From NCBI RefSeq assembly GCF_021608225.1, contig NZ_JAKIJS010000002.1, positions 1-64,000 of the forward strand: a DNA stretch of 64,000 nt, read 5' to 3'. The notes below the pieces were generated by a model. That model was given only the letters and a program-made list of their open reading frames with translations. It was not told where the DNA came from and searched no databases. Below are positions 40,234 to 42,797 of this stretch, piece by piece; the first letter of the stretch is position 1; each line of letters opens with the position of its first letter. This DNA comes from Pseudalkalibacillus berkeleyi. Its GTDB lineage: Bacteria; Bacillota; Bacilli; Bacillales; Fictibacillaceae. Made by a program: the position numbers and the translations under genes.

Positions 40234-40273
40234 TCGACAAAATCAAACGCATGTCAAACAAACATTTGATTGA
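40234..40273. promoter_or_regulatory. composite site 1: TCGACAAA + near-palindrome
   Basis: ATTCGACAAA (0A-box-like on the minus strand) starts 20 bp upstream of TCAA-A-CAAA-CA-TTTG-A-TTGA (40254-40273), a dyad of 16 paired positions. It lies about 100 nt upstream of the DUF421 gene. First of seven copies in 2.1 kb. Confidence 0.65.
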
Positions 40274-40372
40274 AGTAGACGGAATCCTTCATACGTCTAT
40301 ACATTCTAGTTGATTTATTTATGGATGAATATGGGAAACATAGTAGGTAAACGATTGAAAGGTTGGAATGGG

Positions 40373-41068
40373 ATGGACTTTTATGAGCTAACACTTCGAT
40401 TAGTGCTTTCATTCATGATGTTATTAATCATAACGAGGATAATGGGGAGAAAAGAGTTAAGCCAAATAACGTTTCATAACTTTGTATCTGCTGTTGCAAT
40501 CGGGAATATCGGCGCTTCACTTGCGATTGATGATCGACTGGATGTACTAAGCGGGATTTACGCATTAATAGGTTGGACTGTTTTTACAGTTGCGTTAGGG
40601 TACATAGATATCAAGTCAAAGCGAGCCATGAAATGGTTCAATGGTGACGCTCTTATTGTGATTAAGGAAGGTAAGATCATGGAGGGTGCGTTACGAAAAG
40701 CTCGATTAGATCTAGACTCCTTAAATTTAATGCTCAGGAGAAAGAGTGTCTTTTCAATAAAGGATGTTGATTACGCGATCTTTGAAACAGATGGAACTTT
40801 ATCTGTTATGAAAAAAGACAATAAGCAATCCGTTACGAAGGAGGACCTTGGGTTCTCTAAAAGTAGTAGCGTCATTCCAATTGGGACGGAAGTGATATCA
40901 GATGGGAAAATCAATGAACACAATCTGTTGAAATTGAACCTCAGTCCACTCTGGCTCGAGCAGCAATTACGAAAAGCAGGTGTCAAAGATCCTTCAGACA
41001 TCTTTTACGCTGAAGTGCAAAAAGACGGCTCTCTATACATAGACCTGAAAAACGATGAAATCAACTAA
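40373..41068 (+). CDS. DUF421 membrane protein (YetF/YdfR-like)
   Basis: 231 aa. Three N-terminal membrane segments (LTLRLVLSFMMLLIITRIMG, FHNFVSAVAIGNIGASL, LSGIYALIGWTVFTVALGYI) and the GRKELSQITFHNFVSAVAIGNI signature are followed by a cytosolic DUF421 domain (NGDALIVIKEGKIMEGALRKARLDLDSLNLMLRRKSVFSIKDVDYAIFETDG) and a C-terminal extra domain. Some family members in Bacillus are linked to spores. ATG 40373 is the likely start; the frame opens at 40310. Flanked by the palindrome copies 1 and 2. Confidence 0.85.
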   Translation: MDFYELTLRLVLSFMMLLIITRIMGRKELSQITFHNFVSAVAIGNIGASLAIDDRLDVLSGIYALIGWTVFTVALGYIDIKSKRAMKWFNGDALIVIKEGKIMEGALRKARLDLDSLNLMLRRKSVFSIKDVDYAIFETDGTLSVMKKDNKQSVTKEDLGFSKSSSVIPIGTEVISDGKINEHNLLKLNLSPLWLEQQLRKAGVKDPSDIFYAEVQKDGSLYIDLKNDEIN

Positions 41069-41077
41069 TTCACTCAT

Positions 41078-41117
41078 TCGACAAACTCCAATATGATTCA
41101 AACAAACATTTGATTGA
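41078..41117. promoter_or_regulatory. composite site 2: TCGACAAA + near-palindrome
   Basis: TCGACAAA at 41078 and the 20-bp near-palindrome at 41098-41117, identical to copy 1. It starts 10 nt after the DUF421 stop and 112 nt before the MdaB-like gene. Confidence 0.65.
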
Positions 41118-41228
41118 AGTGTCATACCCCTTGTGGGACAAGAACTTTATAAGGGAACATAGCATGGTTTTTTTTGAAAACGATGAAAAATTAGTGGTAA
41201 AATCCATAGTTAAGAAAGGGGTGTTCAT

Positions 41229-41786
41229 ATGGAGAAGATTCTTGTTATTAATGGTCATGAGTATTTTAAACACTCAAGAGGTGAACTCAACCGCACGCTC
41301 TTCAATGTAATCATTGATTGTCTCTCACACCATTATGAAGTGAAAACATCGATTTTAGAGGACGGTTATGATAAAAGTGAGGAACAAGAGAAAGTGAAAT
41401 GGGCTGATGCGGTCATCTACCAGACGCCCATATACAATTACAGTGTACCGGGACTCTTTAAAAGGTACTTCGATCAAACACATGAACATGGCGTATACTT
41501 TCGCGGGAATACACCTGAATACGGAACAGGTGGTGGGCTGCTGACCGGAAAAAAGTATATATTCTCAACCACATGGAACGCTCCTTATGAGGCATTCAAC
41601 GATAGAAGTAAATTCTTTGAGGGGAGAAATGTTGAGGATGTTCTCTTCCCACTTCATCTGATCCATAAATACGTAGGGATGAAAGGGTTAAAAACATTTT
41701 CTTGTTTCGATGTGAAGAAGAATCCCGATATCGAATATTATAAAAAAACATTAATTGAACACCTAAGTAAATATTTCAAAATATAA
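41229..41786 (+). CDS. NAD(P)H quinone oxidoreductase-like (MdaB/flavodoxin fold)
   Basis: 185 aa. The N-terminal phosphate loop NGHEYFKHSRGELNRTL binds FMN/FAD phosphate; ADAVIYQTPIYNYSVPGLFKRYFDQTHEHGVYF and the GGGLLTGKKYIFSTTWNAPYEAF block are typical of the MdaB/YwrO-type NAD(P)H dehydrogenases. AAGGGG lies before ATG. Likely reduces quinones or electrophiles. Between composite sites 2 and 3. Confidence 0.88.
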   Translation: MEKILVINGHEYFKHSRGELNRTLFNVIIDCLSHHYEVKTSILEDGYDKSEEQEKVKWADAVIYQTPIYNYSVPGLFKRYFDQTHEHGVYFRGNTPEYGTGGGLLTGKKYIFSTTWNAPYEAFNDRSKFFEGRNVEDVLFPLHLIHKYVGMKGLKTFSCFDVKKNPDIEYYKKTLIEHLSKYFKI

Positions 41787-41821
41787 AAAGTGCTCGGGAG
41801 GATCTACTCTCGAGCACTTTT
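41786..41821 (+). terminator. terminator after MdaB-like gene
   Basis: AAAAGTGCTCG / CGAGCACTTTT with a 14-nt loop. Confidence 0.85.
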
Positions 41822-41838
41822 CAGTATAAATGGGGCAT

Positions 41839-41878
41839 TCGACAAACACCAACGGACTTCAAACAAACATTTGATTGA
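41839..41878. promoter_or_regulatory. composite site 3: TCGACAAA + near-palindrome
   Basis: TCGACAAA at 41839 and the near-palindrome at 41859-41878, followed by CA so that TTGACA (a possible -35) overlaps its right end. It lies 97 nt before the 12-codon frame at 41975. Confidence 0.6.
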
Positions 41879-41974
41879 CATAGACCACTAGAGTGGTAAG
41901 GATTTTAAAAGGTGTCTGCCAACTTCAAGGTAAGTTTGGTACACTTATGGAAAAGGATGGAAAGGTGAATGTAT

Positions 41975-42013
41975 ATGGGAAAATTAAAGGTGGATGATTT
42001 CAGCAAGACATAG
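41975..42013 (+). pseudogene. 12-codon remnant of a gene start
   Basis: GAAAGGTG lies about 9 nt before ATG 41975, which opens a frame MGKLKVDDFSKT and stop. The site looks like a genuine start whose gene has been lost; the DNA behind it holds more copies of the composite site. No family can be named. Confidence 0.35.
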
Positions 42014-42035
42014 CATAAAAGAATCTAAAACCTTC

Positions 42036-42075
42036 TCGACAAAATTTTCAAACTATCAAACAAACATTTGATTAA
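42036..42075. promoter_or_regulatory. composite site 4
   Basis: TCGACAAA at 42036 and near-palindrome TCAAACAAACATTTGATTAA at 42056-42075 (one base changed). Confidence 0.55.
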
Positions 42076-42111
42076 GGGACCTAATCAATTGCTGTAGAAG
42101 GGATTTGCAGT

Positions 42112-42131
42112 TCAAATAAACGTTTAATTGA
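42112..42131. promoter_or_regulatory. near-palindrome copy 5 (no TCGACAAA)
   Basis: TCAAATAAACGTTTAATTGA. The dyad is kept through paired changes (C to T on the left, G to A on the right), which points to selection for symmetry. No TCGACAAA stands at the usual place. Confidence 0.5.
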
Positions 42132-42214
42132 TAGAGTGCTCTTGTCAGGTACCGAAAATAGAACCTGAATGGATTAAGGGGTTCAACAAGGAAAGATTTC
42201 ACCTCGAAAAACAG

Positions 42215-42254
42215 TCGACAAATTATTATAGAGTTCAAACAAACATTTGATTGA
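42215..42254. promoter_or_regulatory. composite site 6
   Basis: TCGACAAA at 42215 and the standard near-palindrome at 42235-42254. Confidence 0.6.
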
Positions 42255-42291
42255 CGCTAATAAACCTTTGATCTCACTACGTTTTTCCATT

Positions 42292-42311
42292 TAAACAAAT
42301 GTTTTAATTGA
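42292..42311. promoter_or_regulatory. near-palindrome copy 7 (diverged)
   Basis: TAAACAAATGTTTTAATTGA, a weaker member of the series, 58 nt before the ribosome site and ATG at 42369. Confidence 0.4.
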
Positions 42312-42368
42312 AAGTTTTCTAGGTGCAATATGGTAGATCCACAAATGACTTTAAGAGGAGGAAGGTTA

Positions 42369-42797
42369 ATGAGTCCCGTTGTATGAATAGAAATGATGAT
42401 GGCAGCTGGTGTGATTGCATTTGTATTTTTGGTAGCAATCTTTGTACCGAAGAACGTTAGAAAAGTGACTATCATAATCGCTACATCCATTACAATGGCA
42501 ATCCTATTATTCTTTGCCATCCGTCCAATCTGGTATGAATATCAAATCACCAAAAGTGAAGAGCGGCTTAATCATTATTTGTCAAATAAGTATGCAAGTG
42601 AAGATTGGAAGATTGAAAGAAGGACAACACCTCGTTATAACGCCTATCAACTAAATGTCACCTTTCAAAGTGAGAAAGAGTGGACCTATACGTATTACAT
42701 AAAGGATGAAATATGCCAGATTTCTTGGTCAAGTACTGGCTTAGAACCTCCTAGCCAAGCTGAGCATTACGAACCTAAGGAGTGCGATGAACCGTAA
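42369..42797 (+). pseudogene. small membrane protein gene with in-frame TGA at codon 6
   Basis: AGGAGGAAGG leads into ATG 42369, codons M S P V V, then TGA (42384-42386), then the same frame continues I E and M M M A A G V I A F V F. The long part (134 aa from 42393) has two membrane segments (AAGVIAFVFLVAIFV and VTIIIATSITMAILLFFAI) and a soluble domain with WKIERRTTPRYNAYQLNVTFQSEKEWTYTYYIKDE. One base (TGG to TGA) would restore it. Restart at one of three ATGs at 42393 is possible, but those lack a ribosome site. Confidence 0.6.

Follow-up and report, generated by a model that had tools for sequence, protein, structure and literature searches.

Near-palindromes on both sides of oriC in Pseudalkalibacillus berkeleyi are probable RefZ-binding motifs adjoining a candidate Spo0A-type box

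Genes and dyads in the window

The window, meaning the whole 64-kb stretch of DNA that was analysed, contains a cluster of seven near-palindromes (dyads), listed with the accompanying boxes and two neighbouring genes in Table 1. The names DUF421 and MdaB-like, given to these genes in the original prediction, agree with the profile matches. The DUF421/YetF gene is listed with a TTG start, and a later start is possible; it is regarded as a neighbour and is not thought to be regulated by the sites. A 134-aa frame at 42393 gave a DUF3139 match that is below the threshold (22.6 vs 27.3 bits). Composite 2 lies directly 3′ of the DUF421 stop codon, and composite 3 is downstream of the flavodoxin-fold gene. 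A sigma-type gene is present at composite 4+5, and a paired element is also found upstream of the same gene in G003 and G004.

The sequence TCAAACAAACATTTGATTGA is exact in copies 1, 2, 3 and 6, with one change in copy 4 and three in copy 5. Copy 7 is weaker, with 4 mismatches when aligned with one extra base. In copy 5, symmetry is retained by paired changes, as had been proposed, and the C-to-T and G-to-A pair can be read directly in the sequence. In copies 1, 2, 3, 4 and 6, the distance from the start of TCGACAAA to the start of the dyad is exactly 20 bp. TCGACAAA occurs 7 times in the window, and the two occurrences away from dyads are both on the minus strand. Thirty first-order Markov shuffles of the window yielded a single dyad overall at ≤2 mismatches, and for CGACA to stand at this offset in 5/7 copies, the binomial probability is ~2e-14. 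The positions, the shuffles and the binomial estimate thus bear out the arrangement first noticed, namely seven dyads of which five have the box 20 bp upstream, and it is real and far beyond chance.

Table 1. Positions of the composites and neighbouring genes in the window, and of the dyad zones in the genome
Feature	Coordinates	Strand	Details
Composite 1	40234..40273	+	Box 40234-40241; 12-bp linker; RBM-like dyad (copy 1) 40254-40273
DUF421/YetF gene	40310..41068	+	Between composites 1 and 2; PF04239, 127.7 bits
Composite 2	41078..41117	+	Box 41078-41085; dyad (copy 2) 41098-41117
Flavodoxin_2-family gene (MdaB-like)	41229..41786	+	Between composites 2 and 3; PF02525, 119.5 bits
Composite 3	41839..41878	+	Box 41839-41846; dyad (copy 3) 41859-41878
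Composite 4+5	42036..42131	+	Box 42036-42043; dyads 42056-42075 (copy 4) and 42112-42131 (copy 5)
Composite 6+7	42215..42313	+	Box 42215-42222; dyad (copy 6) 42235-42254; degenerate dyad (copy 7) 42291-42313
Dyad zones	C1:2,569,035-2,694,273 and C2:40,254-162,773		26/26 dyads

Architecture of the composites

Composite 1 has no partner dyad at ≤2 mismatches. The two dyads of composite 4+5 are separated by a 36-bp spacer, an offset of 56, and in composite 6+7 the second dyad follows ~57 bp after the first, with one extra base. Spacings were counted for 76 elements with 119 dyads at the examined loci, a subset of the relatives' dyads, and the dyad-dyad spacing was 56 in 31/43. Offsets of 62, 64 and 60 (8 counts, involving weak partners) fall outside a helical series.

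CGACA is present at −19/−20 in 17 of the 26 dyads of this genome and at the mirrored position in 1. The (T)TCGACA box is almost always on one chromosomal strand, 14–15 bp from the dyad. Base counts used 54 of the 76 elements, the others either lacking a box at ≤1 mismatch or being too close to the end of a locus. The linker is conserved at bases that were not used for selection (T at −11 in 49/54 and at −10 in 41/54); the CGACA columns are biased because elements were selected by a box with ≤1 mismatch. From the base counts, we considered that the linker could hold a second, degenerate dyad (TCGACAA-NN-TTYKCAW) or that a further 0A box could follow in tandem at 10 bp. A conserved right flank seen by eye in G043 reached at best 3/10 in a k-mer count and is not claimed.

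A few elements have a box at each end and a total length of 115–116 bp (G000:C2:133694-133809, G003:C6:153956-154070 and G006:C20:40305-40420), and the spacers of some paired elements are alike by eye, so local duplication is possible. These features would suit a MITE- or REP-like repeat family with a 96–116-bp unit and inverted ends, but we regard this as highly improbable. The right flanks of copies 1–3 are unlike by eye, the copy number is low and limited to two zones, several sites are syntenic in up to six species, and paired dyads that lack the box exist in other families. Moreover, of the 30 genera sampled, one had the composite of box and dyad, and there was one weak match besides, in a scan that includes no record for G004, which has matching sites, and that possibly leaves out the present genome. 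The one match outside the genus, in Neobacillus terrae, in which CGACA is inside the spacer of two dyads ~67 bp apart and there is no linker, was treated as chance. Given the unlike flanks, the single genus and the syntenic sites, the suggestion that the composite is a mobile unit, in the usual sense, is not supported.

Distribution in the genome

Hundreds of copies, which the original prediction would have counted against itself, were not found. The genome-wide search gave 26 dyads at ≤2 mismatches in the 3.5-Mb genome, all of them within two zones (Table 1), vs 3 matches for a reversed control pattern. A DnaA domain is encoded at C1:2,976,820, placing the left zone 283–408 kb away; the placement of C2 is by synteny with G004 alone. 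G004 is a closed relative with a single contig and DnaA at base 4. It contains 17 dyads, and 15 of these are at −420 to −281 kb or +338 to +521 kb, on both sides of oriC. Taking the zones of the present genome together with G004, the near-palindromic motif flanks oriC on both arms.

Sites occur before, after and between genes on both strands, the surrounding genes have no evident common theme, and the gene content between sites varies from species to species. These observations, and a genome-wide distribution that follows oriC, speak against the earlier idea of an operator of the adjacent genes. The dyads do have the look of a TetR operator, and 12 further TetR_N matches above the cut-off are present in the genome. 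Hence, operators for another TetR-family repressor, controlling DUF421, the flavodoxin-fold gene and other flanking genes, were considered. However, with sites both 5′ and 3′ of genes on either strand, neighbours that lack an evident shared theme, all 26 dyads restricted to two zones, and dyads rare or absent in genomes that lack refZ, this explanation is very unlikely, and an ordinary TetR operator was dropped because promoter logic is lacking and because the sites keep to two zones. An integron-like array of gene cassettes, with the dyads as its recombination sites, would fit small genes lying between same-strand sites (spacings 87–844 bp, two clusters) and the different position in G004 of the flavodoxin-fold gene, whose match there sits upstream of DUF421, but the sites follow oriC and refZ, ties that such an array leaves unexplained, and we give it hardly any credence.

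RefZ and its co-occurrence with the dyads

As the original prediction had noted, there is no TetR-like gene in the window; the genome has 14 TetR_N matches, the weakest below the cut-off, and all are on C1, with none on the contig of the window. The proposal that a TetR-family protein acts on the dyad is supported by RefZ, a member of this family that is activated by Spo0A (PMC6657595). The genome encodes a RefZ orthologue at C1:2084134-2084715 on the minus strand (NF037937, 260.9 bits; cut-off 180). Its best match in the PDB is 6mj1, B. subtilis YttP/RefZ (E 3.9e-54), and it retains the recognition-helix tyrosines. PHP and GAF genes flank refZ in this genome.

Dyads were counted at ≤1 mismatch. 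G001, the one genus member that lacks RefZ, is the only one of eight with 0 dyads, and the remaining seven have 10–27 each. The RefZ-negative sample was drawn from G001 and 20 of the 69 genomes with no initial RefZ match, 4 of these 21 proving to be RefZ-positive. Over the 78 genomes pooled, dyads were found in 48/61 RefZ-positive vs 5/17 RefZ-negative genomes, and three or more dyads in 25/61 vs 0/17, though p-values for this co-occurrence overstate independence because the presence of RefZ follows kinship. Twelve of the 17 RefZ-negative genomes are without dyads and the other 5 have 1–2 each. The motif is thus lost, or nearly so, where refZ is lost. The converse is imperfect, as 13/61 RefZ-positive genomes have no dyad; 12 of these belong to the sister genera g2 and g4.

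Comparison with the B. subtilis group

B. subtilis is described as having five RefZ-binding motifs (RBMs), two on each arm and a fifth close to oriC (PMC6657595). Six B. subtilis-group genomes were searched; the comparison covers the matches listed for G384, G244, G170 and G287 and leaves out G266 and G076, and among the matches listed the five-site layout was seen in G384 only. The RefZ of G384 shares 97 % identity with the B. subtilis protein. This genome has five dyads at ≤2 mismatches, contigs 1 and 8 carrying two each and contig 2 one. By synteny with G170, a single contig starting at dnaA, contig 1 belongs to the right arm (+311 kb) and contig 8 to the left arm (−450 and −415 kb). The 2+2+1 grouping was therefore recovered, with two right-arm and two left-arm sites placed and the contig 2 site unplaced. 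At ≤3 mismatches, G384 gave 18 matches vs 12 for the control. G244 has four dyads at ≤2 mismatches, each with a syntenic counterpart among the five of G384. G170 also has four, one of which, at 68,222, is off the layout; the second site on its left arm carries three mismatches. At least six dyads, widely spread, were found in G287, the sequence of which does not begin at dnaA.

The candidate Spo0A box

The 0A box core is given as TGTCGAA, with G2, C4 and G5 named as Spo0A contacts, in PMC3485338. Read on the opposite strand, the box found in this genus is TGTCGA(A), and the equivalents of G2, C4 and G5 are its most constant positions, although the boxes had been selected for CGACA. All 7 bp of the core, TTCGACA, are present in 9/18 boxes of this genome and 15/38 from the loci of relatives, a total of 24/56, again with CGACA as the criterion for selection. 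The genus box differs from the known one in adjoining RBM-like dyads. The (T)TCGACA box resembles an inverted Spo0A box and may have Spo0A as its ligand, and TTCGACAA is possibly a Spo0A-type box, so that the likeness of the flanking box to the Spo0A box, raised in the original prediction, can be kept as possible on sequence grounds. An 0A-like core was found ≤200 bp upstream of refZ in 2/7 genus members, and the present genome has none in that interval.

Discussion

Judging from the layout and the co-occurrence with refZ, the TTAAACAAACGTTTGATCAA-like dyads are most likely RBMs. We consider it very probable that they are RefZ-binding motifs at landmarks flanking oriC, operating in the chromosome-capture model and accompanied by a candidate Spo0A box. 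The RBMs would be fixed landmarks on both chromosome arms around oriC. RefZ would be made as sporulation begins and would bind to them as single or paired dimers. By tuning the position of the FtsZ ring, as in B. subtilis, it would help the forespore to capture the origin-proximal part of the chromosome. An offset of 56 bp is approximately five helical turns and could bring several RefZ dimers next to one another, and the (T)TCGACA box could allow Spo0A~P and RefZ to share one element.

Comparison with the RefZ, RBM and Spo0A literature draws on PMC6657595, PMC11154705, PMC6084994 and PMC3485338. The present system is like that of B. subtilis in having near-palindromic sites on both arms about oriC and a RefZ orthologue that is 48 % identical. 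It differs in having 26 dyads rather than five, and relative to the published description it is set apart by clusters of seven dyads in ~2 kb, by the 56-bp pairs and by the nearly one-stranded (T)TCGACA box at a fixed distance. SlmA, which is responsible for nucleoid occlusion in E. coli, is also a TetR-family protein on chromosomal sites that acts on FtsZ, but has no significant sequence similarity to RefZ, as reported in PMC6657595. A literature search combining RefZ with three genus names returned no RefZ report among the matches listed, and within the literature searched the high copy number, the 56-bp pairs and the fixed-distance (T)TCGACA box are new.

Neither the copy number, 26 vs five, nor the strand uniformity of the box is expected from a symmetric boundary model. 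A more specific reading, which we put forward tentatively and think rather less likely to be right than wrong, is a capture boundary of composite elements, with Spo0A~P and phased RefZ dimers bound next to each other and the elements in polar arrays by the dozen. If so, the phosphorelay that leads to RefZ being made would also arm the sites at which RefZ lands, and the elements would be polar to the chromosome, not symmetric about oriC, which would imply a directional reading of the chromosome at polar septation.

With approximately five times as many sites, phased pairs and an extra conserved box, this genome offers natural variants on the requirements for the boundary. It opens the questions of how many RefZ molecules are needed per boundary, whether the spacing has a role and whether Spo0A acts at the DNA, and G001, the relative that lacks refZ, is a natural control.

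Dyads and boxes in the window

The dyads (near-palindromes of the form TCAA-N-CAAA-NN-TTTG-N-TTGA) and the upstream boxes (containing CGACA) of the original prediction were found as claimed. Among the seven dyad copies, four are identical letter for letter, copy 4 differs at one position and copy 5 at three, and copy 7 is a degenerate version containing one extra base. Copy 5 does keep its symmetry by paired changes, a symmetry-keeping pair being among its three, and TCGACAAA lies at an exact 20 bp offset upstream of copies 1, 2, 3, 4 and 6. Only 1 dyad at ≤2 mismatches was recovered altogether from 30 Markov shuffles of the window, and the chance of a box at a fixed offset in five of seven copies is approximately 2e-14.

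The genes between the sites (YetF/DUF421, a flavodoxin fold and a sub-threshold DUF3139) have no evident shared theme. They are followed by a sigma-70-type gene that has a DUF4179 gene next to it. In the same-genus relatives G003 and G004, the sigma gene has a paired element ahead of it, with a different sequence before that element; in G003, approximately 2.2 kb without a match separates two sites. This turnover of neighbours fits landmarks that keep their position while genes change. The flavodoxin-fold match in G004 is upstream of DUF421, a placement different from that in the window, as if the gene had moved.

Location of the dyads relative to oriC

In the P. berkeleyi genome (3.5 Mb, eight contigs), the window occupies C2:1-64000. 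The genome was searched with the symmetric pattern TYAAWCAAAYRTTTGWTTRA at ≤2 mismatches, alongside a control pattern, and 26 dyads were found versus 3 for the control. All 26 are in one of two zones, and the position of the DnaA domain places the left zone 283-408 kb away from it. In G004, a single contig with the DnaA domain starting at base 4, 15 of 17 dyads fall into two intervals, -420 to -281 kb (-42 to -28 degrees) and +338 to +521 kb (+34 to +52 degrees), and the sites in the window correspond by synteny to approximately +368 kb. Each of the remaining two (122 and -174 degrees) carries two mismatches; the same is true of two of the 15 (337,995 and 477,663), which also lack a box and may be chance matches too. 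A second cluster, on the left arm, contains seven dyads in 2.2 kb. Its dyads surround three small genes, and a 139-aa frame ends inside the dyad of one element.

As described in PMC6657595, the RefZ-binding motifs (RBMs) of B. subtilis are five near-palindromic sites, two per arm and one near oriC, that set the limits of the chromosome region taken into the forespore, and the two-zone layout seen here is like this one.

Features of the P. berkeleyi genome (C1 and C2, contigs; L029, left-arm locus)
Feature	Location	Details
RefZ	C1:2084134-2084715	one of 14 TetR_N matches; NF037937 260.9 bits, cut-off 180
PHP gene, refZ neighbour		PF02811, 69.3 bits
GAF gene, refZ neighbour		PF01590, 50.3 bits
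Flavodoxin-fold gene	window 41229-41786	between similar composites 2 and 3
Left dyad zone	C1:2,569,035-2,694,273	
Dyad zone including the window sites	C2:40,254-162,773	
DnaA domain	C1:2,976,820	
Left-arm dyad cluster	L029:4816-6972	
139-aa frame	L029:6479-6898 (-)	

RefZ and its co-occurrence with the dyads

The window had been said to hold no TetR-like gene, and indeed none of the 14 TetR_N matches in the genome is on its contig. The product of one of them matches 6mj1, the RefZ/YttP of B. subtilis (E 3.9e-54), and retains the tyrosines of the recognition helix. The PHP/refZ/GAF neighbourhood resembles ytvP-yttP-ytsP of B. subtilis.

RefZ scored over the cut-off in 58 of the 60 genomes searched (P. 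berkeleyi included), but not in G001, from the same genus, or G045. G001 (single contig, 4.2 Mb) is a natural case of refZ loss inside the genus. At ≤1 mismatch, each of seven RefZ-positive genus members has 10-27 dyads and G001 has 0. RefZ and dyads were also searched for in G001 and 20 of the 69 genomes without a match to B. subtilis RefZ, and 4 of these 21 were RefZ-positive and 17 RefZ-negative. In pooled raw counts of related genomes, at least one dyad (≤1 mismatch) was present in 48/61 RefZ-positive versus 5/17 RefZ-negative genomes, and at least three in 25/61 versus 0/17. The 13 RefZ-positive genomes of the 61 without a dyad at ≤1 mismatch are G044 and 12 in two sister genera, g2 and g4, where RefZ is present with only 0-4 dyads and the motif may have diverged. 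G146, from another family of the order, has 15 dyads at ≤1 mismatch, eight of them exactly TYAATCAAACGTTTGATTRA, and is a further lineage rich in RBM-like sites.

Sites in B. subtilis-type genomes

B. subtilis RefZ was matched at E ≤1e-30 in 328 of 397 genomes of the order, and the closest was that of G384 (97 % identical). Of the six B. subtilis-group genomes searched (G266 and G076 being the other two), dyad positions were compared for G384, G170, G244 and, in part, G287. At ≤2 mismatches, the dyads of G384 number five (two each on contigs 1 and 8, one on contig 2). Allowing up to 3 mismatches raises the count to 18, versus 12 for the control, and the additional matches are thus mostly noise. 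The G170 genome (RefZ 82 % identity) consists of a single contig (3,980,199 bases), the start of which was read by eye as dnaA and dnaN. G384 C1:164,512 corresponds by synteny to G170 310,978 (+311 kb), and C8:535,836 and 572,323 to 3,530,326 and 3,564,845 (-450 and -415 kb), the last with three mismatches in G170. Hence, G384 has two sites per arm and an unplaced fifth. G170 has a further right-arm site at 380,507, and its match at 68,222 does not fit the layout. Each of the four sites in G244 (94 %) is syntenic to one of the five in G384, and G287, in which the contig start is not dnaA, has at least six, widely spread.

Box, pairing and polarity

Within the literature searched, the number of dyads is new, 26 with seven in 2 kb of the window (copy 7 being counted there but outside the 26), as are the box at a fixed distance, the pairing at a preferred 56 bp and the uniform strand of the box.

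For 17 of the 26 dyads, CGACA begins 19 or 20 bp upstream, and for one it is at the mirrored place. Among 54 box-bearing elements, the linker has T in 49 at -11 and in 41 at -10, and C at -7 and A at -6 in 33 each, in columns outside the criterion by which the elements were selected. TT precedes CGACA in 9/18 boxes of P. berkeleyi and 15/38 others, and the resulting TTCGACA is, on the other strand, the 0A core TGTCGAA of the Spo0A box, as given in PMC3485338. From this match, we infer Spo0A~P as a candidate ligand of the box. Among 60 genomes, the composite of box, linker and dyad (≤3 mismatches) occurs in seven genus members; a single match, with 3 mismatches, comes from another genus. A scan for exact matches, with each species represented by one genome, yielded 20 stretches, located in Pseudalkalibacillus salsuginis, Bacillus sp. 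Marseille-Q3570, Alkalihalobacillus sp. YIM B00296 and Rossellomorea aquimaris EaN35-1 (genus members G007, G006, G005 and G003), and Neobacillus terrae, once and in a different setting. G002 has RefZ and paired dyads, yet only 1 box in 20 dyads examined.

Among the genus loci examined, the dyad-dyad spacing is 56 bp in 31 of 43 cases and 55 bp in four, the others being 33 (2), 67 (2), 45, 54, 62 and 64 bp. When weaker partners are included, there are 55 counts at 56 bp (a pair being countable from both sides), 8 at 55 bp, 8 at 60 bp and 4 at 87 bp; over the range 72-120 bp, the mean is 0.35 per distance. Pairs at 44, 55-58, 66 and 102 bp in other families (28 dyads, six genomes) show that pairing is wider than this genus. 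Many spacings agree with 3 to 6 turns of approximately 11 bp; 60, 62 and 64 do not.

The strand of the box is 17 versus 1 in P. berkeleyi. In six relatives, after normalization by synteny and with two boxes without synteny left out, it matches that of P. berkeleyi in 33 cases and is opposite in 4, of which at least two are second ends of two-ended elements. As the strand is the same in the left and right zones, the polarity runs round the chromosome and lacks a mirror symmetry at oriC. Local duplication from two founders would account for it by a coin toss, or it may have a functional meaning.

Proposed role in sporulation

In B. subtilis, the loaded RefZ boundary tunes FtsZ placement and leads to origin-proximal capture, as reported in PMC6657595, and by analogy the most likely role of the dyads in this genus is the same. 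RefZ would be made at the onset of sporulation and load on the dyads, the loaded boundary would tune FtsZ placement, and the origin-proximal part of the chromosome would be captured. Paired and clustered sites would raise the RefZ load per boundary, and the box, to judge by its letters, would allow Spo0A~P beside RefZ.
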